A stretch of 64,000 bases of DNA from NCBI GenBank assembly GCA_030695565.1, contig JAUYRZ010000117.1, forward strand, positions 1 to 64,000, read 5' to 3'. The translations under genes and the position numbers were made by a program. Under the pieces are notes generated by a model. The model was given only the letters and a program-made list of their open reading frames with translations. It was not told the origin of the DNA and did no database searches. This DNA is from Archangium sp. Lineage in GTDB: Bacteria > Myxococcota > Myxococcia > Myxococcales > Myxococcaceae. Shown here piece by piece: positions 40,351 through 64,000 of the stretch. Position 1 is the stretch's first letter. Every line of letters starts with the position of its first letter.

Positions 40351-40503
40351 TCATTCCCAGCTCCAGCGTTCGGGGTGCCACGCACCGTCCGCGAGGAGCT
40401 GCCGCTTGCGCGCGAAGAGGGACCCTGTGTTCGCCGACGTACGGAGCCGGTGCTCGAGGGCCTGTTTGAAGGCTTCCGGGGAGGACTACGTGCGCACGGT
40501 CAT
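40351..40503 (-). pseudogene. Gutted AbiEii-type toxin remnant
   Basis: The frame MTVRT-stop-SSPEAFKQALEHRLRTSANTG then SLFARKRQLL matches the first 37 residues of the toxin at 46578-47483. It jumps directly to ADGAWHPERWSWE-stop, matching the toxin's last residues (LDASWHPRHWTWEQHV). About 250 codons are missing in frame and codon 6 is TAG where the intact copy has TAC. It overlaps the antitoxin gene by ATGA exactly as the intact pair does. Confidence 0.85.
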
Positions 40504-48728: not shown

Positions 48729-49772
48729 TTACGGCGTCGCCGACTTGAGCGACTGCTTCATTCGCTCGGCGAGGACCTCGGGCGCGAGTCGGCCGTAGAC
48801 GCGCTCGACCATCCGCGTGTCGCGGTGGCCGAGCACCGCGGCGATCAGGTCCGGCTGAAGGCCCATGCCGCGCAGCCAGGTCGCGCAGGTGCGGCGCAGG
48901 TCGTTGGGCGAGCAGCGCTCGATGCCGACCCGCTTGCACGCAACGAGGATGTCACGGTTCATGTTGCCCCACGGTTTAAACAGGGCATCCCCTTCGCCGG
49001 CCGCGTGCTCGAGCGCGAAGTCGAGGTAGCGGCGAAGCAGCGGCACCACCATCGGCACTCTCCGCGAGCGCCACGCCGTCTTGGTCCCATGGATCTCGAC
49101 GAAGTCGCGCGCCGGGCTCACGTCACCTCGAAGCGCGAGGTTCGTCTCGTTCCGGTTCGCCGACGTCGCGACGATGTACGCCACGCGCGCAGCTCGATCG
49201 CCGCCCAGAGCGCCGAGCAGCTTGTCGACCTCGTCCTGCGTCAACCAGCGGGTCCGCGGCCGGTAGTCGCTGAGCGACTCCGCAGGAAGAACCGCGAGCA
49301 GGCTCCCGTCCCAAAGCCCCGCGCGGGCCGCGAGCTTGAGACCCCCGCGAAGCGTGACGATCTCTTTGGTGATCGTGTTCCCCGCCGCTCCCTCTTCGCG
49401 CCGCGTGCGGATGTACGCATCGACATGGCTCGCGCTCAGCTCGCCAATCAGGAAGGGCCGGTACTCGCTGCCCTCCTGCCCAAGGAGTCGCATCAGGTGG
49501 CCGCTCTTCTTCCGGTACATCTTCGCGGTCTCCGGGCTCCGCTTTCCGAGCTCGGCTTGCTGCTCCCGCTTGGAGATGAGCAGGGTGAGCGCCTGCTCGA
49601 GCGTGGCCGACCTGACCGCCGTCCCGGCCGGGTCCGCGTGTTCCTGCTCGATGCGGCGCGCGACGATCTCCGCGGCCTTCTTGTCCTGGCAGCCCGTGCT
49701 CAGTCGCTGGCGCTTCCCGCCCCGAAGGTTGATGTCGACGAACCAAGTCTTCCCGCGCTTGTAGAGCCTCAT
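48729..49772 (-). CDS. Tyrosine-recombinase integrase
   Basis: From ATG 49772 the product is 347 aa. An N-terminal SAM-like core-binding region (about 55-160) precedes the catalytic domain. Arg207 (SANRNETNLALRGDV), Lys231 (HGTKTAWRSRRV), Arg293 (SPNDLRRTCATWL), His316 (VLGHRDTRM) and Tyr326 (VERVYGRL) fit the active site. The usual box II His before Leu-Arg is Asn290. ATG overlaps the upstream HTH gene stop (TGATG). It probably drives integration of the island. Confidence 0.92.
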   Translation of the reverse strand: MRLYKRGKTWFVDINLRGGKRQRLSTGCQDKKAAEIVARRIEQEHADPAGTAVRSATLEQALTLLISKREQQAELGKRSPETAKMYRKKSGHLMRLLGQEGSEYRPFLIGELSASHVDAYIRTRREEGAAGNTITKEIVTLRGGLKLAARAGLWDGSLLAVLPAESLSDYRPRTRWLTQDEVDKLLGALGGDRAARVAYIVATSANRNETNLALRGDVSPARDFVEIHGTKTAWRSRRVPMVVPLLRRYLDFALEHAAGEGDALFKPWGNMNRDILVACKRVGIERCSPNDLRRTCATWLRGMGLQPDLIAAVLGHRDTRMVERVYGRLAPEVLAERMKQSLKSATP

Positions 49773-50158
49773 CAGAGGCCGCCCTTCTTCGCCTTGGTGC
49801 GCGGCTGCGTGAACTTGATCGACCCCGGAAGGTTCGAGGCCTGGGCGTTTCGCGCAGCCTGCTTCAGTGCTCCGAGTTCCGACTGGGTTAGTGGTCGCTC
49901 GATCGCGGCGCTGCGCGTCGGAAGGGCGGGCCTTCCGAGCTGGCGGAGGGTCCAGTCTCTCAGCTGAGAGGGCAGGATGAAGGCGAGCGTCGAACCGATC
50001 AGCTCGCCTCTGCACTCACGGATCACCTGGTAGGCGTGCGACCGCGAACAGCGGAGCGCGGTCACGACGTCCTTCACTCGAAGGACCGCGATGACCATCG
50101 AGCCCCGCGAGTTCATCCGGTAGTCGAGTTCAGGATCCGGCTTCAGCGTCCCCGTCAT
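49772..50158 (-). CDS. Helix-turn-helix protein, excisionase-like
   Basis: The 128-aa protein has a short helix-turn-helix, VLRVKDVVTALRCSRSHAYQVIRE (about 25-48), of the MerR/excisionase type, followed by a Lys-rich tail. The position directly upstream of and coupled to the integrase (TGATG) suggests an excisionase or directionality factor. GGAGG precedes ATG 50158. It lies next to an operator-like dyad at 50193. Confidence 0.72.
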   Translation of the reverse strand: MTGTLKPDPELDYRMNSRGSMVIAVLRVKDVVTALRCSRSHAYQVIRECRGELIGSTLAFILPSQLRDWTLRQLGRPALPTRSAAIERPLTQSELGALKQAARNAQASNLPGSIKFTQPRTKAKKGGL

Positions 50159-50192
50159 GTTGCCTCCGCGTGATTGTGCGGAGACGACAATA

Positions 50193-50210
50193 GGATTCCA
50201 ATCGGAATCC
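50193..50210. promoter_or_regulatory. GGATTCC-N4-GGAATCC operator
   Basis: A perfect 7-bp inverted repeat with a 4-base spacer lies 35 bases upstream of the HTH/integrase operon. The same GATTCC/GGAATC words recur at 50580-50620 and in the arms at 51706-51766, so one regulator probably serves all three sites. Confidence 0.75.
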
Positions 50211-50220
50211 AGTCAACCGG

Positions 50221-50565
50221 TCACTTCTTGCTGTGGGGCGCGCCATGCGAACGCGTCACCGGGCCTTCGGGTTCATCGGGAGTCTTATGTCCCGGTACCA
50301 GAAGGTCAGCCCCGGCTGCCGGTAGCTTCATCGCGGCTTCCAGCAGAATGTCCGCGACGAGGACCGAAAGCGGCACCCGGCGCTCGTTCGCTCGGGCCTG
50401 CAGTCGCTGGTGAACGCTCAGGGGTAGCTGGAAAAGGAACAACCGTTCCTCGAAGAACTCGCGGATGAGGTCCGACTGAGGGATCTGCCGCTGCTTCGCG
50501 AGAAACCGCACCCACGAGGTCGCGCGACTCGAGAGCTTGACCTGGAACTTGTCGCCGTCTGCCAT
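50221..50565 (-). CDS. Ribbon-helix-helix-like regulator
   Basis: The 114-aa protein looks like two ribbon-helix-helix units in tandem. The first is KFQVKLSSRATSWVRFLAKQRQIPQSDLIREFFEER (about 6-42). The second is PLSVHQRLQARANERRVPLSVLVADILLEAA (about 48-78). It lies between, and divergent from, the ParB-like gene, with GATTCC words on both sides. It is the best candidate to bind those words and control the integrase and parB operons. Confidence 0.65.
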   Translation of the reverse strand: MADGDKFQVKLSSRATSWVRFLAKQRQIPQSDLIREFFEERLFLFQLPLSVHQRLQARANERRVPLSVLVADILLEAAMKLPAAGADLLVPGHKTPDEPEGPVTRSHGAPHSKK

Positions 50566-50579
50566 GGCGACGATCTATC

Positions 50580-50620
50580 AGATTCCAGATTCCACCAGCC
50601 TTGAGTGGCGATTCGGAATC
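50580..50620. promoter_or_regulatory. GATTCC operator cluster in divergent promoter region
   Basis: AGATTCC occurs twice in tandem (50580-50593) and GATTCGGAATC at 50610-50620 forms an overlapping dyad. They sit between the RHH-like gene start (50565) and the ParB-like start (50663), beside TATATAGACT, a possible -10. Confidence 0.65.
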
Positions 50621-50662
50621 TATATAGACTCCATGCAGCAACCCCTGACGTGGAGGCACGCA

Positions 50663-51547
50663 ATGAAGTTGACCACCGTGGAAGTGGACCTCGCCGCACT
50701 GAACCCCAACCCCTGGCAGCCGCGCCGCAACATGGATGCGGACGAGCTCGCGACGCTGGCCGCGTCGATCCGCGAGCAGAGCCTGCTGCAGCCGATCGTC
50801 GTTCAGCCGCTCGAGGGCGGCCGCTACGTGATCGTCGCGGGCCACCGACGCGTCGCCGCCTACGAAAAGCTGCATGAAACAGATGGCTCGAAGTGGGCGC
50901 GAATCCCGGCTCTGGTCCGCACAGGGCTGACCGAGGCGCAGCTCGCTTCCCTCGCCTACACGGAGAACGTGGCGCGATCGGCGCTGACGCCTGTGGAAGA
51001 GGGCAGGGCGCTCCAGTCGATGGTGGACGCGGGGCTCGCCCAGACCAACGAGGACCTCGCCGCGCTGGTGCAGCAGCCGGTTGCTCGCATCAAGCGCCTG
51101 CGCCGCCTCGCCTCCGGTCCGCGCGTCATTCGCGATGCGGTCGACGCCGGCTTCATGGTGACGCTGGGCACCGACGCTGACGGCACCGAGCGACGCGAGC
51201 TCCGCAAGCTGGAGCTGAACTCCGCGCTCTGCTTCGTGCGGCTCCACGAGGCCTTCAAGCTGGCCGCCCCGAAGAAGGCCGACGAACGCATTGATCGCGT
51301 CATCCGCAAGGCGCTCGCCGCCAACTGGTCCGTCCGCCGCTGCGAGACCTTCGTCGAAGCCACGATCGCCGGGCGCGAGCCGGAGCCCGTCACGGACTCG
51401 GCTCCCGTCCTGGCGGCGCTCTTCACCGAGACGAAGCGACGGTTCGTGGTCGACCTCTTCCTGGCGGCCTCAGCCTCCGCGGAGCAGCTCGCAGAAGTCC
51501 GCGCGGCCTTCGAGCGGGCGCTCGCCTCGGAGCCGGGCCAACGTTGA
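50663..51547 (+). CDS. ParB-like protein
   Basis: From ATG 50663 (GGAGG at 50652-50656) the product is 294 aa. ParB/Srx N-terminal boxes are clear: NPNPWQPRRNMDADELATLAASIRE and VIVAGHRRVAAYEKL (about 45-70), followed by YTENVARSALTPVEEGRAL and an HTH near QPVARIKRLRRLAS. ParB CTP-binding proteins segregate plasmids and chromosomes. Here no ParA is adjacent, so it may serve element maintenance or regulation. The next 307 bases hold only a nested inverted repeat. Confidence 0.88.
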   Translation: MKLTTVEVDLAALNPNPWQPRRNMDADELATLAASIREQSLLQPIVVQPLEGGRYVIVAGHRRVAAYEKLHETDGSKWARIPALVRTGLTEAQLASLAYTENVARSALTPVEEGRALQSMVDAGLAQTNEDLAALVQQPVARIKRLRRLASGPRVIRDAVDAGFMVTLGTDADGTERRELRKLELNSALCFVRLHEAFKLAAPKKADERIDRVIRKALAANWSVRRCETFVEATIAGREPEPVTDSAPVLAALFTETKRRFVVDLFLAASASAEQLAEVRAAFERALASEPGQR

Positions 51548-51670
51548 CCCCGGGCCTTCATCACTCCCTGATTCCTTCCCTTGTTCGCCGCCTTCCCGGT
51601 GCAGGCAGCAACGTAGGCAGGGCAGCAGGGTGTGCGTAGGCAGCATTCCCCTCGGAAGAGGGCGGCGACG

Positions 51671-51797
51671 CTCCCTGCTCTGGCCCCTTGATCGTCGGGG
51701 CGTTCGATTCCCGACCCCACTCCCACAACGACTGAAAATACAGAGAAGGGAGTGGGGTCTGGAATCTCACTGAAAACTGAGGGGCCAGAGCAGGGAG
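51671..51797. repeat. Nested inverted repeat, candidate origin or transfer site
   Basis: Outer arms CTCCCTGCTCTGGCCCC (51671-51687) and its complement (51781-51797) are perfect over 17 bases. Inner arms 51706-51724 and 51748-51766 match over 19 bases with one mismatch and contain GATTCC/GGAATC. The inner loop is 23 bases of AT-rich sequence. It lies between parB and the replication-relaxation gene. The left part reads GTTCGATTCCCGACC, resembling a tRNA T-arm. Confidence 0.8.
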
Positions 51798-51854
51798 AAG
51801 GAAGAGGAGAGTGTCTTCAGAAGGAGTGAATGAAATTCAAAGGAGAGATTGAGA

Positions 51855-52934
51855 ATGGCAACCATCATTACTGAGAGAGATAGGAATCTGTGTGGGGTGT
51901 TGGGGGAAATGAAATGGATAGACGGCGCGCGGGCTGAGCGGTTGTTGCCGGGGCGAGCGGCTGCGGAGGTGCGGAGCGCGTTGGACCGGCTCACGAAGGG
52001 GCAACGGCAGCTGTTCCGGAAGGAGCGGTGGATGTCGCGGCGGGGAATGGAGCCGGCGTACTGCCTGACGGACGCCGGGCATCAGGAGGCGTGTCAGCTG
52101 CTGGAGCGGGAGCTGGAGCCGCCACCGCGGGAGTTCAACGCGCAGGGAATGGAGCACCACTTCGGCGTGGTGGACATCTACCTGGGGCTGCTCACGCACG
52201 CGCTGCCGGCCGAGCTGGCACGTCGACGGTTGCACGCAGGGATGGATCCATCGATGCGGCGAAAGCTGCTGCAGGACGTGTTCGCCCGCGCCGCGCACCC
52301 CACGTGGCGGTGGACGATGGCCGCCAACGAGTCGAGGCTGCCGTGGCGGCAGTTGGTGGCGGTGGGCAGTCCACTGCAGGAGCGCTACCTCCAGCCCGAC
52401 GCGGTGGTCGAGGTGCCTCGGTATTCGATGCGGTCGTTCATCGAGTACGAAAGCGGCGCTCACACCATCCAGCCGGTCGGGCCGAACAAGCCCAACGCAA
52501 CGGTCGCTAAGCTGAAGCGCTACGCCGACTTCATCACCGGCCTGGCGAGGGTCGAGCCGCGCACCACCTGGTACGCGGAGAAGTACCCCGACGGACTCAA
52601 GCCCGAGCTCGTGCTGGTGGAGCCGACTGATCGCCGCGTCGCTCACGTTCAGCAGGCCGTCAACCTGTGGGCGAAGGAGCGGTACCTGGGCAAGGAGCCC
52701 TTCAAGGTCAGAGTGCTGACGCCGGAGAAGACGGTGGCCCGCTACCTCACGTACCTCGACGTCGCCCCTGCACCGCGGCCGAGAGCCACGGCCCTCAGCG
52801 AGCGTGAGGCCGCGGCTCTCGTCGAGTACCTGGAGGGCGTGAAGCACCTCGCTGCGCAACGAGCACTCCCCCGCCAGCCCCTGCCACGGGAGCAGTCAGT
52901 GGCCGGCTTGATGAAGCGACTGATGAACGGATGA
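51855..52934 (+). CDS. Replication-relaxation family protein
   Basis: From ATG 51855 (AGGAG upstream) the product is 359 aa. The winged-helix N-terminus (TERDRNLCGVLGEMKWIDGARAERLL and AYCLTDAGHQEACQLL) and the following HHFGVVDIYLGLLTHALP and PDAVVEVPRYSMRSFIEYE are typical of the Replic_Relax family found on plasmids and integrative elements. Members act with replication or mobilisation initiation. The gene follows the nested inverted repeat, a plausible binding site. Confidence 0.8.
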   Translation: MATIITERDRNLCGVLGEMKWIDGARAERLLPGRAAAEVRSALDRLTKGQRQLFRKERWMSRRGMEPAYCLTDAGHQEACQLLERELEPPPREFNAQGMEHHFGVVDIYLGLLTHALPAELARRRLHAGMDPSMRRKLLQDVFARAAHPTWRWTMAANESRLPWRQLVAVGSPLQERYLQPDAVVEVPRYSMRSFIEYESGAHTIQPVGPNKPNATVAKLKRYADFITGLARVEPRTTWYAEKYPDGLKPELVLVEPTDRRVAHVQQAVNLWAKERYLGKEPFKVRVLTPEKTVARYLTYLDVAPAPRPRATALSEREAAALVEYLEGVKHLAAQRALPRQPLPREQSVAGLMKRLMNG

Positions 52935-52945
52935 AGGAGAGCGTC

Positions 52946-53287
52946 ATGGACGAGGGAATGAGGAACGCCATTGGTCGCATCTTCGTGCGCCAGTGCGACG
53001 TACTGGAATTGTGGGGGCCCGATGGCCCGCTCCCCCAGCTGCGAGACGACGTCGGCGAAGGCCGCGATGGGCCGCTCAGCACACCGCAGAAGGCGCTCAT
53101 GCGCGTGGCCCTCGACCTCTACGACGGAAACGGCCGCATCACCGTGCGCGATGCGCTTGCGCAGATGGGCGGCGACATCGACATCATCAGCACCTTCGCC
53201 GACTTCGTGATGGGGCACATGGCGCCCGGGATGCTGGAGGAGTGGGCGAAGACGCACCAGCTGTTCAACGAATCATCGACGCACTGA
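52946..53287 (+). CDS. Small island protein, paralogue A
   Basis: From ATG 52946 (GGAG 7 bases upstream) the product is 113 aa. An earlier ATG at 52931 overlaps the previous stop and is poorly spaced. The pattern DVLELWGPDGPLPQLRD, ALMRVALDLYDGNGRITVRDAL and IISTFADFVMG parallels the next gene. The central segment has a loose EF-hand-like look (DLYDGNGRITVRD), but not a full calcium loop. Function is unknown. Confidence 0.6.
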   Translation: MDEGMRNAIGRIFVRQCDVLELWGPDGPLPQLRDDVGEGRDGPLSTPQKALMRVALDLYDGNGRITVRDALAQMGGDIDIISTFADFVMGHMAPGMLEEWAKTHQLFNESSTH

Positions 53288-53298
53288 GGGAGGCCCGA

Positions 53299-53646
53299 AT
53301 GCTGAACGCGGTGAAGGACCGGAACGCCATCATCATCGGCGTGCTGGAGGTGCCGAAGCTGCAACACCTGTGGACGGCGAACGGGCCCACTCCCGAGGCG
53401 CTGCGGATCCGCGACTCCGGCGGAGCGATCGTCGAGCCAGCCGTGTTGACCTGGATGCTGCTGGCGTTCGACCTGTTCAACGCGACGGGCGAACTCACCC
53501 TCAATCGGATGTTCGACTCCCTGGAGCGAGATCACCTCGCCATCGCGTTCACGCTGCTGATCCGCGTGGCGTACGGAGAGGAGGGACTGAACAGCATCAT
53601 CGAGAACGGCGGCGGCGAGCCGAGCGGTGGCGCGCCGGTTCATTGA
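53299..53646 (+). CDS. Small island protein, paralogue B
   Basis: From ATG 53299 (GAGGGAGG at 53286-53293) the product is 115 aa. It aligns along its length with the preceding protein: KLQHLWTANGPTPEALRIRD, LLAFDLFNATGELTLNRMF and IAFTLLIRVAYG. Identity is low but spacing and hydrophobic pattern agree, so it arose by tandem duplication. Function is unknown. Confidence 0.6.
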   Translation: MLNAVKDRNAIIIGVLEVPKLQHLWTANGPTPEALRIRDSGGAIVEPAVLTWMLLAFDLFNATGELTLNRMFDSLERDHLAIAFTLLIRVAYGEEGLNSIIENGGGEPSGGAPVH

Positions 53647-53717: not shown

Positions 53718-54617
53718 CTATCTCATGAGGCTTGGGTGCGGCACCTCTCCCTCCCCACGACAAAGCAGGCGAGGGAGGCGGAGCTGGGGATGAGTGGAGT
53801 CGAAAAGTTCACTCGACACTGTCACACCAGCCTCGAACCAGGCCGCTGCTGCTGCGACGACCCGCTGGTCCAAAGCGCCGTCAGGGTAAGCGATGGTCCG
53901 CGGTTTCCGTTGCCCCAGCTCGACGAGCATTTGGGACGAAGCTGAGAGCTCGGCAGCAAGGGTAGTGGGGTGCAGGTCGGTCAGCCGATCGTGATGAGCG
54001 CCGTGACCGCCGATCTCCCATCCGACGGACATCAACGATGAAAGGTCCTGGCGGTCGAGGTATCCGATTGAAGCTGAGGGGACGGAACTCACTCCGAGTG
54101 CCGCCTCCAATCGTTCGAGCAGCCTGCCCCTCGCGTCTCGAGCCAGCCCCGCCAGCCTCGCCTTGAGCGGTCCCCGCACCCACCAACGCAGACTGGAGTC
54201 TGGAGGCCGCTCGTTGCATTCGGTGGCGAGGATGTCTCGAACTGCGGTGGCCTCAAACCCGGCCTGGAGTTGAGGGACCATCGCGTAATAGCGGTCGAAC
54301 CAAAGCGGATCAGCTCCCGGAGGGAGGGTCGAGGTGCAGACGTACACGGTCGCGACAGCGCCCAGTTCGCGGCAGACAGGAAACACGTGCTCGACGACAT
54401 CGCGATAGCCGTCGTCGAACGTGAGGGCGACAGTGGGATGCTCGTTGCGCTCTCCGAAGACGAGGTCTCGGACCGTGCGGAAGACATACCGCTCAGCGAG
54501 CCATCTGAGCTGCGCGCGGAAGGCCTCGGGCGTCACTGCAGTCCCGCGTTCGAAGTAGCACGCGGTGTCCTCGGTACGCGCGCAGACGCGGTGGTACATC
54601 AGAATGGCCTTGGTCAC
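53718..54617 (-). CDS. Polysaccharide deacetylase-family protein
   Basis: From GTG 54617 (overlapping the upstream stop, GTGA) the product is 299 aa. NodB-homology motifs are present: LTFDDGYRD with Asp68-Asp69, and GGHGAHHDRL with His205 and His209 as metal ligands. These enzymes remove acetyl groups from glycans or other amides. No signal peptide precedes the domain, so a cytoplasmic small-molecule or lipid-linked sugar substrate is likely. It is the last gene of the seven-gene operon. Confidence 0.85.
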   Translation of the reverse strand: MTKAILMYHRVCARTEDTACYFERGTAVTPEAFRAQLRWLAERYVFRTVRDLVFGERNEHPTVALTFDDGYRDVVEHVFPVCRELGAVATVYVCTSTLPPGADPLWFDRYYAMVPQLQAGFEATAVRDILATECNERPPDSSLRWWVRGPLKARLAGLARDARGRLLERLEAALGVSSVPSASIGYLDRQDLSSLMSVGWEIGGHGAHHDRLTDLHPTTLAAELSASSQMLVELGQRKPRTIAYPDGALDQRVVAAAAAWFEAGVTVSSELFDSTHPQLRLPRLLCRGEGEVPHPSLMR

Positions 54618-55651
54618 GTTGGACCGATGGGGCACGAGGTGGACATGATCGCGAACAGCTTGGCGTGTCGCTCTCCGCCAAACGCAACGCGACCGAGAAG
54701 CCGCCCGGAGCCACGCTCGAGCCACAGGACCGATGTCTCAGTCGCTTCGACGCTCTCCTCGCGCCACGCGTATTGCGGGCGTCCATGCATCTGGGTGAGC
54801 GCCACGGCAACGCCCTCCTCGGAGGCAAGTATTCCACGGCACCAGCCAAGGTGACCGGTGGCTGCACTGTCGTAGCGCTCAGCCAGCTTCCACACTGGCC
54901 CGCGCGGGTCCCAGCCTTGGATGAAGCCGTCGGTGGTGGTCGTCCAGACGAGCCCATCGAATGATTCCGCGTCGTGTGGATGTCCCTCGAATCTCGCAAT
55001 GGTCTCGAACGTCCTCAGACAGCGCACCTCCTTTGCAGCGAGCAAGGTGACTGCCAATCGCCCGTTGATGATGCTCACGTGGTTCGGGTGCGCGTAGTCG
55101 CGAACGAGCCTCCGATGAAACTCAGGTCGAGGGCCGTCCCCTCCGTAGTTTTCGCCCTTCGCGCGGACGAACTCGGGCGCAGCGCTCCGGGACCAGCCGC
55201 TGGCCAGAAGGTTTGCGAACTGGTGACGCTCTACGGCCCATCCGTCCTGGCGGCGCGCGTCGAACCAGGTTGGGCTCAGAGAGTGACGCCCAAGGAAGCG
55301 TCCGTTGAGGTCGAACGACTCGATGCCATCGAGCCCGGTATTGCAGACGAAGAGCCGTCCCTCGTCGTGGGCGACGTGTACGTCGTGCAGATCGTTGAAG
55401 TCCGGTTGGTGAAGGATTCCCGTGCACGCCCACGTCGGTACGTCGAACCGCCAGACGGCAGAGAAGCTCGCGACCAGGAGCGTCCGGGGATCCAGCCATC
55501 TCGCGCCGGTGAAACCCTTCGTCGGCACGAGGAACTCCGCCGGAGGGATGAGCGTGACGAGCCGCTCTCGCGTACCGGTCGCCAGATCGACCTCCTCGAC
55601 GAAGCACTCGCCGCTCTGATCGAAGAAGCCCCCAGTGACCCAAACTCTCAT
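54614..55651 (-). CDS. Beta-propeller protein (TIGR03032/DUF4915-like)
   Basis: From ATG 55651 the product is 345 aa with repeated beta segments, for example GARWLDPRTLLVASFSAVWRF, FNDLHDVHVAHDEGRLFVCN, HPNHVSIINGRLAVTLL and FEGHPHDAESFDGLVWTTT. It resembles DUF4915/TIGR03032 propellers found in glycan and secondary-metabolite clusters. No catalytic residue can be named. It is 13 bases after the SLOG gene and overlaps the deacetylase gene. Confidence 0.7.
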   Translation of the reverse strand: MRVWVTGGFFDQSGECFVEEVDLATGTRERLVTLIPPAEFLVPTKGFTGARWLDPRTLLVASFSAVWRFDVPTWACTGILHQPDFNDLHDVHVAHDEGRLFVCNTGLDGIESFDLNGRFLGRHSLSPTWFDARRQDGWAVERHQFANLLASGWSRSAAPEFVRAKGENYGGDGPRPEFHRRLVRDYAHPNHVSIINGRLAVTLLAAKEVRCLRTFETIARFEGHPHDAESFDGLVWTTTTDGFIQGWDPRGPVWKLAERYDSAATGHLGWCRGILASEEGVAVALTQMHGRPQYAWREESVEATETSVLWLERGSGRLLGRVAFGGERHAKLFAIMSTSCPIGPT

Positions 55652-55664
55652 CTCGCCCCTCGTT

Positions 55665-56240
55665 TCAGCGACCGTGACGCCAGCCCGCGCCGATGTCGCC
55701 AGCAGTGGCGGGCCGTGCGGCCAATTCGCGGCAACGTCGGACCGCATCTGCGACGTCACTCGCCGTATGGATCGGCTCGGTGCTCCGCGCATCAATGACC
55801 TCGCCAGCAAGCCGTCCCCCCCAGCCTCGACGGCCGAACGCCACGATCGGCCTCCCGAGCTGCCACGCGATGGCGATTTCGCTCAGGGTCCCTGCGCCAC
55901 CACCGATGGCCAGCACCACGTCCGCTGAAGAGACGACGAGCACGTTGCGCCCCATCTGCATCCCGCTCGGGATGACCACGTCACACCAGGGGTTCGCATC
56001 GCTCGCCCGATAGGAAGGGACGATGCCGATGATGCGGCCATCGCACCAGGCTGACGAACTCCGCGCGCCCCGGCTCACTTCCTCCATCACTCCGCCGAGG
56101 CCACCTGTGATGATTCGGAAACCCGCATCGATGAGTGCGGCTCCGAGTTCGCGCGTCTGGGTGATTTCGGTCTGGTCCTCGAGCCGCGCATCCCCAATCA
56201 CGCTCACCACGGGGAGCCGCTTGACGGCTTCACTCAGCAT
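55665..56240 (-). CDS. SLOG-fold protein (TIGR00725 family)
   Basis: From ATG 56240 the product is 191 aa. The nucleotide-binding motifs VSVIGDARL, GGLGGVMEEVSRGA and GGGAGTLSEIAIAW match the TIGR00725/LOG-like family, whose members bind nucleotides or NAD derivatives and sometimes act as phosphoribohydrolases. The start lies 11 bases inside the upstream gene. It is probably the nucleotide-handling component of this operon. Confidence 0.82.
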   Translation of the reverse strand: MLSEAVKRLPVVSVIGDARLEDQTEITQTRELGAALIDAGFRIITGGLGGVMEEVSRGARSSSAWCDGRIIGIVPSYRASDANPWCDVVIPSGMQMGRNVLVVSSADVVLAIGGGAGTLSEIAIAWQLGRPIVAFGRRGWGGRLAGEVIDARSTEPIHTASDVADAVRRCRELAARPATAGDIGAGWRHGR

Positions 56241-57597
56241 CTGGGCTCTCCGCAAGGCGCCGGGCGAAGGCCTCGAGCGCTTTGGCGCCGTCGATGCTGG
56301 CGAGCACGTCGCGCCACGGAGCGGCGAGGCGCCCTTCGCAAACACCGGGTACCGTATCGAGCACCCATTGCAGCCTTTCGTCGACGCGTTGCCACAAGGC
56401 TCGCGGTCCCTTCGCCCAGGGAGCAATCGCTGCGGCGAGCCTCCTCGCGTCGCCGATCGCCACTGCAGTGCGGCTCAGCGCTCCGTCGATCCTGTCGAGC
56501 CGTTGCTGGAGGAAGCTCATCACCGTCCGGCCGTCGTCACCGAGCGCGCGAGTCAGCGCGGCCCCCCACGTATCGGCAATGAGATTGCGGGCGAGCTCCT
56601 CGCTGGTCGGAAGCGCACTCTCATGGCGTGGCCGTGAGTGGAGGACCGCAAAGCCCGACTTGCGGAGACGCTCGGGGCATGCGCGCGCGAAGAGAGTGCT
56701 CGCCAATGTGTCGCTCCGTCGTGTCTCGATGCCCTCGATCGTCAGAGAGGCATATCGCTGCGAGAGAAATGCTTCGGAGGAGAAGAACACCGCGTGCGCC
56801 CCACGAATCGTCTCGTTCCGAAGTCGGCCGAACTCGAGTGCGTTCGCAAGGATCGGGCGCGAAAACGCGATGCCGAAGGGGATGTCGCACGCGTCGCACA
56901 ACATTTCTTCGAGTGCCTCCGCGACCTTCAAGCCTCGCCTGCTTGCTGTCCAGAGACGGGCCTCGGTCGCGCCCTCCGAGAAGTCGTAATAGTCGTCCCC
57001 GGAGGAGCCAGAAGCCCCCGCCGGCTCGCCCTCCCAGAGTGCGTGGGGCGCCATCCCTCCCATTCGGCGAAGCGAAACCGCGAAGTCTTCTAACCTCGAC
57101 GCGAACGTCGCAACCGCTGGGATGGGTGGATCGCCGCTGACTTCTCCGAGCAGAACCTCGAGCTCAGGGTGCTTCGCCTTCACATCGAGGAGAAACCCCA
57201 GGTGGTTGTGGAGCCGTCGTGTGCGCCGCGTGCCGCCCTCGACGACCTGGTGCTCGAGGCGCACGTCATCGTCGAGCATCCAGATGAAAGCCGGTGGGGA
57301 CGCCGAGGCGCGAGCGCGGCCCACCTGATTCCGCTGATCCCTCCGACTGCGAGCGATCGACCCGCCAGGTATCGTCGCCTGCTCGACCCGCACCGAGCTG
57401 GCAACACTTCTGAGCACTGCGAGGGCATCCTCAGTGGATCTGCGTGCAGCGGCCGTTTTGCTGTTGTCGATGACCAAGACGCTCAGGGCACAGGGGAACT
57501 CTTTGGCCAGCTCTACCAGGTCACCCGCGAGCCGTCGGAGCGATGCGGGGCGATCCGTTACTGCAATTGAGATCCAGACTTCTGAAGTCGAGCTCAC
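56230..57597 (-). CDS. Glycosyltransferase-like protein
   Basis: From GTG 57597 (GTGA overlap) the product is 455 aa. The N-terminus ISIAVTDRPASLRRLAGDL and LSVLVIDNS, followed by FIWMLDDDVRL with Asp109-111, resembles the nucleotide-sugar and metal site of GT-A (GT2-like) enzymes. The remaining 330 residues are an unrecognised helical region. A longer frame to 58692 is another gene's shadow. Sugar transfer to an unknown acceptor is inferred. Confidence 0.65.
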   Translation of the reverse strand: MSSTSEVWISIAVTDRPASLRRLAGDLVELAKEFPCALSVLVIDNSKTAAARRSTEDALAVLRSVASSVRVEQATIPGGSIARSRRDQRNQVGRARASASPPAFIWMLDDDVRLEHQVVEGGTRRTRRLHNHLGFLLDVKAKHPELEVLLGEVSGDPPIPAVATFASRLEDFAVSLRRMGGMAPHALWEGEPAGASGSSGDDYYDFSEGATEARLWTASRRGLKVAEALEEMLCDACDIPFGIAFSRPILANALEFGRLRNETIRGAHAVFFSSEAFLSQRYASLTIEGIETRRSDTLASTLFARACPERLRKSGFAVLHSRPRHESALPTSEELARNLIADTWGAALTRALGDDGRTVMSFLQQRLDRIDGALSRTAVAIGDARRLAAAIAPWAKGPRALWQRVDERLQWVLDTVPGVCEGRLAAPWRDVLASIDGAKALEAFARRLAESPDAE

Positions 57598-58373
57598 GAC
57601 GTCTCCCGTCGCGCTCGCAGCCAGGCTTCGACCGCCTCGTCTACTGGGAGGCACCCCAAGCCGAGCCGGTCGCGCAGAATTGCACCGACGTTGTCCTCGG
57701 CCAGTTCGATGCGATGCCACGTCTTCTCGCGGTAAACCGTCAGGGTCGTATCTCGGAGCACGATCATCTCGTCCGTGCTCATCCTCACGGCGCGCAGGCC
57801 CCGCAGGAACGGCCCGAATCCCTCTTGGTGGTGATGGCGATCGATCGTGCCGGAAAAGTCTGCCCACACCTTCGGCTTCAACGCAGCTCGGTAGACGACC
57901 CGCGATTCCGGCTGATCGGGCGATGCTCGCCGCAGCTCCACGGCGCCTGAGAGAGGGCGGGTCTCGAAGCACCAGCCAAGGTGTGCGAACCGAAGCGGAG
58001 CGTCTGCTGGGAACGGTTCGACGTAAGGCTGGCCGTTGCCCACGTCGCACAACCACACCCGTCCGCTCGCGAGCACACGCACGAGCAGATGGTCGTCGGG
58101 GTGGGTGATGGTCGCCGCGGCGAGATCGGCCTCGAACCCGAGCGACGTCACCAATTGAAGAAACCCCGCGGCCTGTACGTGGCAGGGCCCGCCAAGCCCA
58201 GTGGTGCAGCGGTCGAGGGCTTCCTCTCGGGTCAACGTTCGACCTCCACGAAGCGAGCTCGCGAGCAGGTCGAGGTTGTGGAAAGGCTGAGTGAAGAGCC
58301 ACTCGCGCACGAGCTGGCGCAGCGCGTGAACGCTCTGTCCGTCTGAATCGAGTTGCTCCGCGGATGGGCGCAT
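57594..58373 (-). CDS. Arylamine N-acetyltransferase-like acyltransferase
   Basis: From ATG 58373 the product is 259 aa. The NAT fold is recognisable: PFHNLDLLA (about 30), GGPCHVQAAGFLQLVTSLGF with Cys64, DDHLLVRV with His95, and VWLCDVGNG with Asp110, the Cys-His-Asp triad in the expected order. NATs transfer acetyl or longer acyl groups, and NAT-like proteins also close amide bonds in antibiotic pathways. ATG overlaps the PhyH stop (TGATG). Confidence 0.85.
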   Translation of the reverse strand: MRPSAEQLDSDGQSVHALRQLVREWLFTQPFHNLDLLASSLRGGRTLTREEALDRCTTGLGGPCHVQAAGFLQLVTSLGFEADLAAATITHPDDHLLVRVLASGRVWLCDVGNGQPYVEPFPADAPLRFAHLGWCFETRPLSGAVELRRASPDQPESRVVYRAALKPKVWADFSGTIDRHHHQEGFGPFLRGLRAVRMSTDEMIVLRDTTLTVYREKTWHRIELAEDNVGAILRDRLGLGCLPVDEAVEAWLRARRETS

Positions 58374-59530
58374 CAGCTTGGGACACGCTGAAGGACTTCG
58401 ATGGCTGAACCGGCAACCTCCCACCAGCGCGACACCGCGCGAAGGTAGACGTCGCGTGCCACAGACACACGACGGACGAGTTCCTGTTGCCGGAGCTCGA
58501 CGAGCAGCTCGAGAACGGCGCCTTGCTGGTTGGGCTTGATGACGGCGCACTCGACCAACCGCGAGATGATCGAAGCCAGCTGCTCCGTGGTTCCGAGCTG
58601 CTCGGAAAGTGGCGATGGGGCTCCGGTCGATCCGCGCAACCACGCAATCTGCGCGGCGATGTCTTTGCTGGCGGTGAACATGCTCGGCCCATTTGCTCTC
58701 ATGGGCGCCGGGAACGAGACGAGGCGCCCGCTACTCTCCTCGTCGCCGATGGCGTCGCCGAACAGGGGGAAGTACTCCCCCTCGAGACGCTCCCCCGGCG
58801 CGACGTGAATGTGCGCGGACGAGGGGTGCCAGTTCGCATGGGCTGGAACGAAGCGAGCCGCAGCGGGCACCCAGAGTGTCAGGTACGCGAGGCGATCCTC
58901 TACGGCGCCATTCGGGTCGCTCGCGTGCCAGGTCAGTCCGTCGAGGATCACCGATTGGCCCCGCCGCGTCGGCAACAACACCAGCCGGGCGTCGCAGTCG
59001 CGCGCAACGCCTCTGTTCGCGAGGAAGTCCTGCGGGGGAGCGGGTCCGTCGCGGTGTGACCCATCGATGACCTTCAGGCAGCCGCCGGTCGTCGGGACAT
59101 CCGCCGTCGGCGTCCACACCGAGAGGCCTACTCGATCAAGCGGCCAGTACGCCGAGTCTTGATGCCACGGGATGGCCCCAGAGCGGCCCGGCGGTTTGCA
59201 GATCGCCTGGTCGTGGAACAATCGCACGGCCTTGGCCCCGAGAAATCGGCGTACGACCGCGCTTTGCTCGGTGTCGAAGAGCAGCGTCCGGAACTGCTCG
59301 TTCTTTCGCCAGAGGTCACGGTTCTGTGGAAATCGTTCAACGAACGAAGTGGGCGACAGCCCAGCGAGTACCGCGCTGTCGTGCACGACCTCGTTCCACC
59401 CTCGGTTGATCTGGTCGAGGGAATCGTCGGTCAGAACGCGGTCGACCACGGCGTAGCCATGAGCATCGAAGAACGCCTTGGCTTCGGCGGAGTGCCATGG
59501 AAACGACCGGGACTCTACGCGGGGTGGCAT
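58373..59530 (-). CDS. Phytanoyl-CoA dioxygenase-family oxygenase
   Basis: From ATG 59530 the product is 385 aa. The iron site HxD is in IPWHQDSAYW and a distal His is in LDGLTWHASDPN, followed by a conserved DRLAYLTLW. These non-haem iron/2-oxoglutarate enzymes hydroxylate or halogenate small molecules. The C-terminal 130 residues are an extra helical part. The gene is coupled on both sides by TGATG overlaps. Confidence 0.87.
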   Translation of the reverse strand: MPPRVESRSFPWHSAEAKAFFDAHGYAVVDRVLTDDSLDQINRGWNEVVHDSAVLAGLSPTSFVERFPQNRDLWRKNEQFRTLLFDTEQSAVVRRFLGAKAVRLFHDQAICKPPGRSGAIPWHQDSAYWPLDRVGLSVWTPTADVPTTGGCLKVIDGSHRDGPAPPQDFLANRGVARDCDARLVLLPTRRGQSVILDGLTWHASDPNGAVEDRLAYLTLWVPAAARFVPAHANWHPSSAHIHVAPGERLEGEYFPLFGDAIGDEESSGRLVSFPAPMRANGPSMFTASKDIAAQIAWLRGSTGAPSPLSEQLGTTEQLASIISRLVECAVIKPNQQGAVLELLVELRQQELVRRVSVARDVYLRAVSRWWEVAGSAIEVLQRVPS

Positions 59531-60360
59531 CAATCGATCTCCGAAGCCGCAGTGAGTACCGCGCGGAACTGGCGAACGGACAGTTCGAGGTTCTGCTCTG
59601 GGAGCGACTCATCGGGCCGATGGATCGCAGATGCCGGGTCGTTGGGCCCGATGGCCAGATAGGGGCGGTCTCGAACGAGGTGAGTGAGAAAGGGACACTG
59701 CGCTGGCCCTAGGGCCTTGTTGAGAAAGCGGTCGTGGCGCCGCGACGCTCGCCCGTCGCCAGCCGCGACCCGCTCCACTGCTGCGACGATCGGCGCCGTC
59801 GCCTCATCGTGGTTTCGCGCGAGGATCCGTTGCGAGCCGTCGAGCTCGAAATAGCCGGTCTCCTCGAGCCAGAGATCCACTCGGGGCCACTGGAGTTTGG
59901 GAAACGTTTGGTGCGCCTCGGGCGAGCCGATCTCCTCCTCCCCTTGAAGCACGAGGAGCAGCGACGGTGTCGAGTCACTCGCGTGTTCGTCGATCGCGGC
60001 CAGACGGAGCCAGAGGGGCCCGAGGTTGTCAGCCAGGCCACGACCGAAGATGCGGCCACCAGCGCGCGTCGCCTCGTGCGACGGGTAGGTCCAGCCGCTC
60101 CCCGCATCCTCAACGTCGTAGTGACCGATGAGCCCGAGCCGCAGGCGGCCCGTTCCTGCACGTGACGCACGCACGATACCTCCGGAGGGACCGCAACGCT
60201 CCACGTGGAAACCGAGGCGCTCGAGCCAGGCCACCACCGATCCGCACACGTGCTCGCGCCCAGCGATGTTTGCTTCAGTGGGCCGCGCCGCGACCCAGGG
60301 CGACACGCCAACATGAAGCGCCTCTCCCCAGTCGCCCACCTCGCCGCCCGACGTCTTCAT
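59530..60360 (-). CDS. Compact M20-like metallohydrolase
   Basis: The 276-aa protein has the zinc ligands and catalytic residues of M20 amidohydrolases: GHYDVEDAG (His80, Asp82), GRGLADNLG (Asp111), LQGEEEIGSP (Glu141/142), WLEETG (about 167) and HRPDES (His247). It is about 100 residues shorter than usual, because the dimerisation/lid domain between the Glu and final His motifs is missing. It is the first gene of the operon, with AGGAGG at 60368-60373. Confidence 0.82.
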   Translation of the reverse strand: MKTSGGEVGDWGEALHVGVSPWVAARPTEANIAGREHVCGSVVAWLERLGFHVERCGPSGGIVRASRAGTGRLRLGLIGHYDVEDAGSGWTYPSHEATRAGGRIFGRGLADNLGPLWLRLAAIDEHASDSTPSLLLVLQGEEEIGSPEAHQTFPKLQWPRVDLWLEETGYFELDGSQRILARNHDEATAPIVAAVERVAAGDGRASRRHDRFLNKALGPAQCPFLTHLVRDRPYLAIGPNDPASAIHRPDESLPEQNLELSVRQFRAVLTAASEID

Positions 60361-60428: not shown

Positions 60429-60911
60429 GTGAAGCGTCTGACCTGGCTCGTTGGCCCGCCCGCTGCGGGAAAGACCACGTGGGTGAAGACGCTCGACTGC
60501 GCAGTGGTCGAGTTCAACGAGATGCTCGCTCCGCTCATTGAACCCCAGCGGCTGCGGAAGGGCGTCCTCTCCGCGAACGGGCATCTGGTCGGGGCAGTCC
60601 GTGCGGTGCTTCTGCACGCAGAGAACGTCGCGCTTCCGCCCACTCTCGTGGTGGCCGGAATGGTTGCTGAGACGATTCTCTTCCCAGTCTCCGAAGACGA
60701 GGATGTTTGGTTGCTCCTCCCAGAGCGAGCGCGATGGGAGCGACAACTCCTGGCGCGACCAGTGAACGGAGGTGCCACTGGGCAGTACGACGACTACGAG
60801 TACGCTCGGCTTTGGTACGAGCGGTTCTCGAGTTGGCCGGGCCGCCTGCCGGTCGTGACTATCGATGCGCCGTACCGCCAGGAACTGATTGGAGGGATCG
60901 CGGACCGATGA
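60429..60911 (+). CDS. P-loop kinase-like protein
   Basis: The 160-aa protein begins TWLVGPPAAGKTTW, a Walker A motif at residues of about 9-17. An Asp/Glu-rich DEDVWLLLPERARW and a later Arg-rich region are consistent with a small AAA_33/shikimate-kinase-like fold. It is divergent from the M20-like gene with 68 bases between, so the two may share a regulatory region. Substrate is unknown, but kinases of this size phosphorylate small molecules. Confidence 0.72.
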   Translation: MKRLTWLVGPPAAGKTTWVKTLDCAVVEFNEMLAPLIEPQRLRKGVLSANGHLVGAVRAVLLHAENVALPPTLVVAGMVAETILFPVSEDEDVWLLLPERARWERQLLARPVNGGATGQYDDYEYARLWYERFSSWPGRLPVVTIDAPYRQELIGGIADR

Positions 60912-61001
60912 GCGCACCCTGACCCAGGCTGTCACACCAGTCGGCGATGTTCTCTAGGTGCACCCAACTTGGGTGAGACGCTGCTCACGGAGACTCGTAC
61001 G

Positions 61002-62057
61002 ATGCGTGCCGGAGGGTTCTTGGTGGTCAAACGAGCCGGGCGGGTTGGTGCGAAGTCGTCAGATGTTCTGCGCAACGAGCAGGTCGTACGCATCTTACGA
61101 ATCCTGAGAGACCTGGACCGCGTCGGCGGAAGCGATCTCTACGAACTGGCCGAACGCTACGGCACCACGACGCGAACGGTGCGCCGTGACCTCGACGCGA
61201 TCGCGGAATCTGGCATTCCACTCACTCAGGAAGCGGGGGAGGGCAGCCGCAAGCGCTGGCGACTCGACACCGAGGCGGCCGCCCGACTCGCGAATCTGAT
61301 CGAGGCCTCGCACTTTCTGGCGCTCCGCCTGGCGATGGAGGAATCCACCATCCTCCGCCGCAACGAGAGCCTCTTCGCTGTCATGGAAGATCTCGCCGGC
61401 CGAATCGAGAAGGCGCTCGGCCGCAAAGGCCGCGAGGAACTGCGTGAACTCGACCGCTGCTTCTTCAGCTGGGAAAAGTTCGCCTGGCGCGAAGCCCCGC
61501 GCGAGCTGATGTGGCCGCTGGTCGGGGCGATCACCAAGCGACGGGCCTGCGTGGTGACGTACCGCGCACCCAGCAGCGGCAACACTGACCGGCGCTTCCG
61601 TGTGCTTCCGCTCCGACTCATCGTGCACAACGGCGCTCTCTACCTCCACGCGTGGCAAGCGCACTTCAAGACCGTACTGCTGCTGAACCTCCAACGTCTG
61701 CACAAGCTCGAGGTCCTCGACGAGTCGGAGGCGCTGCCGCCCGAATACGACCCTGAGAAGCTCGAGCACTCCGCGTTCGGGATCTTCATCGGCAAAACCA
61801 CCGAGAACTATATTTTGAAGTTCGACGCCTTCGCGCGCCCCTACATCGAGGAGCGCAAGTGGCACCCATCGGAGAAGCTCGAGCCACAGCCCGACGGCGG
61901 GGTGATTCTCAGCTTCCAGTGCACGCCCTCCTACGAGGTGACCAACTGGGTTGCCTCGTGGCGGGAACATGTCGAGGTGCTCGAGCCGAAGAAGCTGACC
62001 CACGAGCTGCGGGCGTATGGGCAGTGGTTGGTCGGCAAGTACGGTGGCCCAACGTGA
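61002..62057 (+). CDS. WYL-domain transcriptional regulator
   Basis: From ATG 61002 (GGAG upstream) the product is 351 aa. An HTH (RILRILRDLDRVGGSDLYELAERYGTTTRTVRRDLDAI, about 30-68) precedes a WYL-type domain (about 170-260, AITKRRACVVTYRAPSSG and RVLPLRLIVHNGALYLHAW) and a WCX-like C-terminal region. WYL proteins sense nucleic acids and often control DNA-repair or anti-phage genes. It overlaps the next gene by GTGA, so the nuclease-like gene is its operon partner. Confidence 0.9.
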   Translation: MRAGGFLVVKRAGRVGAKSSDVLRNEQVVRILRILRDLDRVGGSDLYELAERYGTTTRTVRRDLDAIAESGIPLTQEAGEGSRKRWRLDTEAAARLANLIEASHFLALRLAMEESTILRRNESLFAVMEDLAGRIEKALGRKGREELRELDRCFFSWEKFAWREAPRELMWPLVGAITKRRACVVTYRAPSSGNTDRRFRVLPLRLIVHNGALYLHAWQAHFKTVLLLNLQRLHKLEVLDESEALPPEYDPEKLEHSAFGIFIGKTTENYILKFDAFARPYIEERKWHPSEKLEPQPDGGVILSFQCTPSYEVTNWVASWREHVEVLEPKKLTHELRAYGQWLVGKYGGPT

Positions 62058-64000
62058 GCGCTCGAAAGATGTTCTTCGACGAAGCCTTCGATGGTGGCGT
62101 CTATGCAGGGCCCCGCACTGGTGGAAGCGCTGGCGAGTCGTGGTTGGGACCGCAGGGCGCTCTCGGTTCCTTCGAGTCGCTGCTTGGGCTGACGCAGCGC
62201 TCAGTGGGCGCGGGCGTTCGTGTGGGAGAAGCCCTTCGAGGCCTGACCGAGGCGCCCGCGGCGTTCTGGACCAACTCTCTGGGCGCCGATGGATTGGCGA
62301 CTGCTCGCGACCTCTTGCGCTGGAACGACACCCTTCGCCTTCACGGGTGGAAGGGCGAGGGAGGTCAGCGGCTCGAAGCGCTGGCAGCCGCCTTGAGCAA
62401 CGTCTCACCTGGCACCGCGGAGCGCCTGGAGCGAGTCAAAGAACGCCTCGCCCTGCTGACCGATGTGCGCTTCTCACTGGGCCTCTTCGCAGATCCGCAG
62501 TCGCTCCCGCGCCGCTGGCGAGAAGTGATCGAAGCGGGCTCTTCGGTCATGAAAATGGTCTCCCTCTCCCCCGCGGGAGAGGGGGTTGGGGAGCGGGCCG
62601 TCAACCCGTCATCCGACGACCCGGCGCTCCAACTCATCCGCCCGTATGGGCCTCTCGTCGCCGCCGAATCGATCGCCGCCGCCCTCGCGGCTTCTCCGAC
62701 GGTCCCCACCGTCATCATCGGCAGCGATCCCGTTCTCGACGCAGCGCTGCGCCGCTACGGGCTGCCCACGACCGGCGCACCGCAATCAGCCCACGACAAC
62801 GTGCTGGGGGAATTGCTGCCCCTCGTCATCGAGCTCGGCCTGCTCCCCGCGGATCCCCATCGAGCGCTCGAGCTGCTCACGATTCCGAATGGGCCGGTGC
62901 GCGCCAAGGTTGCGCGGCGGCTCCAGCGCGCCCTTCAACAGTGGCCTGCCGTCGGGAGCCCCGCATGGCGCCAAGCCATCGAAGAGGTCTTGCCGGAGCT
63001 CGAAGACGACGCCGCGCGGAAGTCCGTGAAGGAACGGCTCAGCGATGTGTTCGAAGGGAAGGTGGCGAATGGCCACGCCTACCCGACCGCTGTGCTTCTC
63101 GATCGCGCGGCCTGGATGCAGCAATGGCTCCACGGCCGACTCGCGCATGAGACTTCGCTCGAGGGCCAGCTGCGGCTTCAAGCTGTCATGGGTCAGGTCG
63201 CCCTGTTCTCAAACCTCGTCGACCGGACCTCGGCCCCTGAGTTGACGATGATTCAGGTGCGGCGCTTCCTCGAGGAAGCGCATCACGGCATGTCCACCCC
63301 GGCCGCCTTCCCCCGACAAGCGGGTCTGCACTCCGTCGCTGCGCCAGGAGGCGTGGTGGCACCGGTCGAGCGCATCGTCTGGTGGAACTACACGCGGTCG
63401 AGCAGTGGGGTGCCGCGCGCGCTGGGGCTTTCGAAAGGCGAACTGGAGCAGTTGGCCTCGGCTGGAGTCGTGCTTCCGACCACTGCTGATCTTTCACGTC
63501 GACGCTCGGCGAGTGCGCAGCGGCCTTTTCTGATGGCAACCCAGTCGCTGTGGTTGGTGTGCCCCCGGCACGAGCTCAACGGAGATGAGGCGACGCCCCA
63601 CTCGAGCTGGGACGAGATCGCCGCACGCGTGAAAGAACCCCGTTTGGTGAGCCGCCTCGTGCGCGACGAGCCGCTCCTCGAGAAACCCGTGACGAAGACG
63701 CGGCGGACCTCGTTGCCACTTCCCGCCCCAGTCCTCGAGTGGAAGACCAACGTGAAGATCCTTGCGCGCGAGAAGGAGTCCCCCTCGAGCGTCGAGGCAG
63801 TTCTCGGCTGCAGCCTTCAATGGTCGCTCAATTACGTCGCGAGGCTGAAGAGCGGTGCCACCGCAACGCTCCCCACGGGCGACACCGTGTTGGGGAAGCT
63901 CGCGCATTTCGTTCTGCTCGAAAGGACTCTGCGGGTGCAGCACGCATCCGCGGTCGACGCCGCCGACTTCGCGATCAACACTCTGAGGGAGGAGGGCCCA
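62054..64000 (+). CDS. Large nuclease-family-like protein (partial, runs off window)
   Basis: From GTG 62054 the open frame continues 649 codons to the window edge without a stop. The N-terminus (MSARKMFFDEAFDGGVYAGP, WLGPQGALGSFESLLGL) and the AAWMQQWLHGRLAHETSLEG region resemble AddB/PD-(D/E)XK nuclease-family proteins encoded beside WYL regulators. The nuclease motif itself, expected near the C-terminus, lies beyond the edge. A dispersed palindrome is inserted in frame at residues of about 169-180 (VSLSPAGEGVGERAV). Confidence 0.7.
   Translation, partial: MSARKMFFDEAFDGGVYAGPRTGGSAGESWLGPQGALGSFESLLGLTQRSVGAGVRVGEALRGLTEAPAAFWTNSLGADGLATARDLLRWNDTLRLHGWKGEGGQRLEALAAALSNVSPGTAERLERVKERLALLTDVRFSLGLFADPQSLPRRWREVIEAGSSVMKMVSLSPAGEGVGERAVNPSSDDPALQLIRPYGPLVAAESIAAALAASPTVPTVIIGSDPVLDAALRRYGLPTTGAPQSAHDNVLGELLPLVIELGLLPADPHRALELLTIPNGPVRAKVARRLQRALQQWPAVGSPAWRQAIEEVLPELEDDAARKSVKERLSDVFEGKVANGHAYPTAVLLDRAAWMQQWLHGRLAHETSLEGQLRLQAVMGQVALFSNLVDRTSAPELTMIQVRRFLEEAHHGMSTPAAFPRQAGLHSVAAPGGVVAPVERIVWWNYTRSSSGVPRALGLSKGELEQLASAGVVLPTTADLSRRRSASAQRPFLMATQSLWLVCPRHELNGDEATPHSSWDEIAARVKEPRLVSRLVRDEPLLEKPVTKTRRTSLPLPAPVLEWKTNVKILAREKESPSSVEAVLGCSLQWSLNYVARLKSGATATLPTGDTVLGKLAHFVLLERTLRVQHASAVDAADFAINTLREEGP
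62562..62583. repeat. CCCTCTCCC palindrome inside the nuclease-like gene
   Basis: CCCTCTCCC (62562-62570) and GGGAGAGGG (62575-62583) plus the G-rich tail lie in the reading frame, between the helical N-terminal region and the RPYGPLVAAESIAAAL segment. The frame stays open. Confidence 0.85.

Follow-up and report, generated by a model that had tools for sequence, protein, structure and literature searches.

A conserved orphan operon of biosynthetic character in Archangium sp., with relatives scattered among myxobacteria and in two genomes assigned to planctomycetes

What might a run of seven tightly packed genes, with neither a nonribosomal peptide synthetase (NRPS) nor a polyketide synthase (PKS) among them, be making in a myxobacterium? 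The question is raised by an operon (g1 to g7, Table 1) of Archangium sp. (Myxococcota; GenBank assembly GCA_030695565.1), located in the first 64,000 nucleotides of contig JAUYRZ010000117.1, the stretch analyzed here and referred to as the window. The operon and a divergent kinase-like gene beside it form a real, conserved orphan cluster, though not a system of a categorically new type. The gene set is co-inherited, its catalytic motifs are intact in most members, and its biosynthetic character is supported. The product is probably an undescribed small molecule that is linked to a sugar and perhaps resembles a nucleoside. More specifically we favor, without holding it to be probable, the reading that the cluster represents one version of a cassette that moves horizontally and would build a cytosolic glycosylated small molecule through a SLOG enzyme and a glycosyltransferase (GT).

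Gene calls throughout were based on codon usage. A first-pass annotation of the letters alone had described seven co-directional genes with five overlaps and one 13-bp gap, and the minus-strand sequence and the list of open reading frames (ORFs) match this exactly: g1-g2 and g2-g3 overlap as TGATG, g3-g4 and g6-g7 as GTGA, and g4-g5 by 11 bp, leaving g5-g6 as the only non-overlapping junction (13-bp gap). All six junctions thus lie within 13 bp, compared with 6 of the 21 co-directional junctions in the window backbone (first 35.6 kb), a rate at which six tight junctions out of six have a rough chance of 5e-4. Overlapping junctions were also seen in the homologous loci L020 and L013. Judging from the overlaps, the operon genes may be translationally coupled.

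The co-occurrence of the genes was assessed in 195 Myxococcota genomes. Besides the window genome, a search with g4 matched seven others of its family and, in a different family, one genome in which the match is to a large multidomain protein only. Profiles of the propeller (g6) and of the kinase gave strong matches (E < 1e-60) in the same 8 of 195 genomes as the g4 cluster set, with the remaining matches marginal (E about 1e-4); two random sets of this size would coincide with a chance of 2e-14, a figure that is indicative only, as the genomes are related. In each of the seven other genomes the cluster genes lie together in one locus. The kinase gene is part of the operon itself in L013 and L014; in L012, L015-L018 and the planctomycete-assigned L020 it adjoins the operon. 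Correlations of 0.94-0.99 between the pairwise-distance matrices of the M20 hydrolase, GT, propeller, deacetylase and kinase indicate that the cluster genes travel together. The co-occurrence elsewhere that the first-pass annotation had proposed as its own test is therefore present, and the divergent P-loop kinase, which it had counted with the set, belongs to the cluster on the grounds of shared genomes, a single locus and correlated distances. A single-sequence scan of the genome contigs with g4 gave no match and a scan with the propeller alignment succeeded; a tblastn search of plasmids with the propeller found no match. In another Myxococcota family, L019 (L070:349-5526) encodes a 1725-aa protein with GT2, g4-like GT and methyltransferase domains, and the rest of the cluster is not nearby.

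Table 1. Genes of the cluster and neighboring features in the window.
Feature	Position	Strand	Length (aa)	Family evidence
g1, M20-family metallohydrolase catalytic core	59530..60360	-	276	PF01546, E 4.8e-10
g2, Fe(II)/2-oxoglutarate oxygenase (PhyH)	58373..59530	-	385	PF05721, E 2.5e-26
g3, NAT-fold acyltransferase	57594..58373	-	259	PF00797 (Acetyltransf_2), E 1.2e-15
g4, predicted GT-A fold glycosyltransferase-like protein	56230..57597	-	455	predicted structure; no Pfam match
g5, SLOG/LOG-like nucleotide enzyme	55665..56240	-	191	PF18306, E 6.7e-34; TIGR00725
g6, predicted six-bladed YWTD/NHL-like beta-propeller	54614..55651	-	345	predicted structure; no Pfam match
g7, NodB-type polysaccharide deacetylase	53718..54617	-	299	PF01522 (Polysacc_deac_1), E 9.3e-19
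Cluster partner, divergent small P-loop kinase-like protein	60429..60911	+	160	Walker A
Phage-type integrase, ParB-like gene, three orphan genes	48729-53646			
Right flank: WYL regulator, AddAB-like nuclease/helicase, sacsin-like ATPase, DUF499	60969-64000 and L062			
Two AbiEii-type toxin genes	36811-37869 and 46578-47483			

The family labels given to g1, g2, g3, g5 and g7 at first pass all stand above the Pfam cut-offs. Protein g1 (40.1 bits, cut-off 24.6) combines its Pfam match with the metal-ligand motifs of M20 metallohydrolases (HxD, D, EEE, EE and IH), kept across 9 loci in the alignment. The PhyH match of g2, which has an ortholog in L020, is accompanied by the HxD...H ligands of Fe(II)/2-oxoglutarate oxygenases. 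Its closest solved relatives are SnoK (9e-17) and EvdO2 (5e-14), from the anthracycline and orthosomycin oxygenases; unlike these, g2 (about 385 aa) has an extra C-terminal part, and the remaining cluster is unrelated to theirs. The NAT assignment of g3 (58.4 bits, cut-off 22.8) includes an intact Cys-His-Asp triad when aligned to solved NATs, and in Myxococcaceae and Plesiocystis a single protein combines the counterparts of g3 and g4. Of these NAT-GT fusions, those of L012-L014, where SLOG is present, have lost the catalytic Cys and those of L015-L018 and L026, where it is missing, retain the Cys, a pattern in a small and phylogenetically non-independent sample.

For g5, both the SLOG LDcluster4 family PF18306 (117.1 bits, cut-off 26.3) and TIGR00725 (110.1 bits, cut-off 106.9) were matched. 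The catalytic motifs are kept in all aligned members. The Arg and Glu of g5 align with those of LOG phosphoribohydrolases but equally with those of the molybdenum cofactor carrier protein, so that a hydrolase activity is no more than plausible. The deacetylase g7 (68 bits, cut-off 23.1) belongs to the NodB type by its Pfam match and its TFDDG and HxxxH motifs, with TFDDG and G(G/A)HGxxH present in 9 of 9 aligned loci. The kinase-like protein has the Walker A sequence GPPAAGK(T/S) in 7 of 7 aligned sequences; against the AAA_33 Pfam family it reaches 19.2 bits (cut-off 27; Walker A only).

The labels for g4 and g6, a GT-like protein and a propeller, are not backed by Pfam, but predicted models point the same way. 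The AlphaFold2 model of g4 (predicted local distance difference test score, pLDDT, 75.7) aligns in VIA-align to TarS (Z 12.0 over 229 residues) and AvpGT (Z 11.6), and the structural matches listed, of which Z 12.0 is the top, are GT-A enzymes; together with an acidic DDD motif that is invariant in the alignment and could bind metal, this argues for a GT-A glycosyltransferase. The model of g6 (pLDDT 83.8) reaches Z 26 over 244 residues and is six-bladed like the YWTD/NHL propellers that it matches, and an ortholog of g6 has a weak DUF4915 match. Sequence searches of the Protein Data Bank with g4, g6 and the cytosylglucuronate (CGA) synthase-like GT of the relatives described below gave nothing useful. 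By simple hydropathy no signal peptide is evident in the cluster proteins, including g7; only the kinase and the SLOG protein reach a 19-residue mean hydropathy of 1.6-1.8, in each case in the globular core.

In line with the first-pass annotation, no NRPS, PKS or precursor peptide is evident in the set, and Pfam and NCBIfam scans of the operon returned no NRPS or PKS assembly-line domains; the cluster is thus a bounded conserved gene set without either kind of assembly line or an evident precursor-peptide core. The further claim that no described pathway has this set also agrees with the open-access literature searched, in which we found no described cluster for DUF4915/LDcluster4, for the domain combination, or for toxoflavin/NADAR parallels. 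A parallel to toxoflavin (propeller, RibA and NADAR) was set aside, as that literature gave no support.

The relatives fall into three forms, and the genes move as a set that is scattered among myxobacteria and reaches two genomes assigned to planctomycetes. Form A comprises the window and L020, with the M20, PhyH, NAT, GT, SLOG, propeller and deacetylase genes in identical order, plus the kinase. L020 carries a second PhyH, and its proteins are 39-51% identical to those of the window (five proteins compared). It comes from a metagenome-assembled genome (MAG) titled Planctomycetota and may be a misbinned contig. Form B occurs in Archangium violaceum (Cb vi76), Corallococcus terminator, Corallococcus praedator, Hyalangium versicolor, a Myxococcaceae MAG and two further genomes. 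Here one protein (about 700-775 aa) contains both NAT and GT, no PhyH was recognized in the loci, and SLOG, present in form A, is present in three of seven. Form B adds a GT2, a NAD-dependent epimerase (LegB/TviC-like epimerase/dehydratase) and the CGA-synthase-like GT, which matches a single NCBIfam family, cytosylglucuronate synthase (TIGR04467, E 5.6e-13). Of the 195 genomes, precisely the seven of form B carry this GT, and it was not found in the L020 genome. The ten-gene operon of L013 also has a nucleoside diphosphate (NDP)-sugar dehydrogenase. Plesiocystis pacifica SIR-1 (L026) is intermediate, with two PhyH, a fused NAT-GT, an NDP-sugar dehydrogenase and a P-loop protein; neither SLOG nor deacetylase was recognized in its locus.

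Form C is the divergent locus L068 (36% GC), from a genome of 9.5 Mb that belongs to the same phylum as that of L020. Its genes include a deacetylase, a propeller, a NAT, an asparagine-synthase-like enzyme and a DUF4145 protein. Within L068:13435-17493, a single ORF joins GT2, g4-like GT and GTP cyclohydrolase II (RibA), and an NDP-sugar-dehydrogenase fragment is fused to a NADAR N-glycosidase (TIGR02464). The RibA fusion adjoins folE2, and a CGA-synthase-like GT lies about 7 kb off.

GTP cyclohydrolase II opens the guanine ring. The fusions and neighbors in form C link RibA, a base-releasing N-glycosidase, sugar-nucleotide oxidation and GTs, and together with the SLOG and CGA-synthase parallels below they make a glycosylated, amide-tailored heterocycle the best single reading of the product. 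The first-pass annotation had suggested a small molecule derived from a sugar or an amino acid, which is an inference. What the relatives suggest, and the annotation had not proposed, is a uronic- or amino-sugar glycoside that probably has a nucleobase-like component, a ring that the SLOG enzyme would release from a nucleotide. We infer the order of substrates and the nucleobase content, and drew every step of the following scheme from protein families. The SLOG enzyme g5 would free a base-like heterocycle from a nucleotide 5'-monophosphate, a step for which the NADAR N-glycosidase could stand in in the planctomycete form. The GT-A enzyme g4, with GT2 and the CGA-synthase-like GT in the larger form, would then attach an amino or uronic sugar. 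The NodB-type deacetylase may take the N-acetyl group off the sugar, the NAT-fold enzyme may add an acyl or aminoacyl group to the amine, the M20 enzyme may trim an amide (possibly a protecting group), and PhyH may hydroxylate or cyclize. The small kinase would phosphorylate an intermediate, or the product for self-protection.

Two known pathways offer partial parallels. In 8-azaguanine biosynthesis (ptn), the LOG-like enzyme PtnC frees 8-azaguanine from its nucleotide (PMC7109123), and the SLOG enzyme of form A and of three form-B loci could free a base likewise. The ptn set pairs PtnC with a GTP cyclohydrolase (PMC7109123), as L068 has RibA and folE2 and the window a LOG-like enzyme; the nitric oxide synthase of ptn was not seen here, however, and no glycosyltransferase is described for ptn. 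In blasticidin and mildiomycin, CGA synthase joins free cytosine to UDP-glucuronic acid (PMC3715490). The form-B relatives resemble these cytosylglucuronate pathways (blasticidin S, mildiomycin) in their TIGR04467-matching GT, in some cases an NDP-sugar dehydrogenase, and a possibly base-freeing SLOG. They differ in that the cluster GT lies far below the family cut-off (40-49 against 300 bits) and is missing from the window genome, that none of the other enzymes of those pathways was recognized, and that the cluster adds M20, NAT, NodB, propeller and PhyH. No CGA synthase above the TIGR04467 cut-off occurs in any of the 195 genomes. A BlsE-type radical S-adenosylmethionine decarboxylase was absent from the cluster genes scanned (window and L013), in the absence of a genome-wide search.

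Several observations weigh against the favored scheme. The CGA-like GT match scores 48.8 against the cut-off of 300 bits, no such GT was found in the window genome, and the window locus is without a local GT2 or sugar-nucleotide enzymes; two NDP-sugar dehydrogenases and one GT2-like match occur elsewhere in that genome, all on other contigs. SLOG was not found in five fused-form loci including Plesiocystis, L068 is without M20, kinase, PhyH and SLOG, and three loci (L012-L014) have lost the catalytic Cys of NAT. The molybdenum cofactor carrier protein, which shares the aligned Arg and Glu, is related to g5 but is not known to act as a hydrolase, and the loci examined yielded no transporter. 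Because the window genome lacks the CGA-like GT and, locally, GT2 and sugar-nucleotide enzymes, a nucleobase in the product rests on the divergent relatives and is less well founded for the window form, for which a base-free amino-sugar conjugate is a close rival.

Such a conjugate would lack a nucleobase altogether: the GT would add N-acetylglucosamine, the NodB-type enzyme deacetylate it and the NAT re-acylate it, with SLOG as carrier or regulator. The glycosyltransferase, NodB-type deacetylase and acyltransferase in sequence have an apparent parallel in the logic of Nod factor (NodABC), mycothiol and bacillithiol. The predicted GT-A fold, the NodB motifs and the NAT triad are all in the window, and the larger form fuses NAT to GT. 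However, the cluster acyltransferase is of a different fold (NAT), and the kinase, SLOG, M20 and PhyH are extra to those pathways. The loss of the NAT Cys noted above counts against this alternative too, and RibA, NADAR and the CGA-like GT of the relatives would have no role in it. We consider it rather unlikely.

It is quite unlikely that the cluster modifies a surface glycan (exopolysaccharide, lipopolysaccharide or glycolipid) by decorating a polysaccharide or lipid-linked sugar that is already there. GT2, the LegB/TviC-like epimerase, the NDP-sugar dehydrogenase and the NodB-type deacetylase are typical polysaccharide genes, and amidation by asparagine-synthase-like enzymes, one of which is in L068, is also known in O-antigen pathways. 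However, the cluster genes of the window and L013 include no recognized flippase, polymerase, export or PHPT gene (nor Wzx, Wzy or ABC export), hydropathy shows no signal peptide in the deacetylase, and SLOG, NADAR and RibA do not fit.

If the cluster makes a nucleoside-like glycoside, myxobacteria would gain a new class of product, with two enzyme folds performing the same base-freeing step and a new NAT-glycosyltransferase fusion. The fuller proposal of an undescribed glycosyl-heterocycle class of natural products, spread horizontally between Myxococcota and Planctomycetota, with SLOG and NADAR as interchangeable base cutters and with re-glycosylation and N-acylation by a NAT-GT pair that is fused in many members, strikes us as unlikely. 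As relatives are carried by named strains such as Archangium violaceum Cb vi76 and Plesiocystis pacifica SIR-1, the question is testable.

The surroundings of the operon, which the first-pass annotation had not taken into account, bear on its history. Mean GC content at third codon positions (GC3) is 0.753 in the eight cluster genes and 0.866 in 30 genes of the backbone (Mann-Whitney p 5e-7), and searches with g4, the propeller and the kinase found the cluster missing from five same-genus genomes. One operon-free genome of the genus (G069, L061) shares 50696-53592 at 88-90% identity and then diverges, the identity ending 126 bp from the end of the operon. The right flank is a defense- or repair-type island. 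Given the low GC3, the absence from same-genus genomes, the flank divergence and the defense-type neighbors, the operon was most likely acquired and is accessory cargo in a variable, defense-type island. That it is itself an anti-phage or conflict module, as neighboring genes on the contig (AbiE, WYL regulator, AddAB-like, DUF499), low GC3 and accessory distribution might suggest, we judged very improbable, since none of the seven operon genes has a convincing PADLOC match (the best being a marginal one of SLOG to PsyrA, E 0.059) and the relatives adjoin, judging from sequence starts, housekeeping genes (GAPDH/PGK/TPI) or a PKS-like gene.

Two minor features of the island were also noted. A short gene (47480-48064) immediately precedes the second AbiEii gene, and the start of this short gene is almost a repeat of that of 40500-41084. 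The right flank contains no repeat array, and a 41-bp sequence inside the AddB-like ORF (about 62558-62598) recurs in dozens of copies, about 82-96% identical, across the window genome and same-genus genomes, and is suspected to be a REP-like element.

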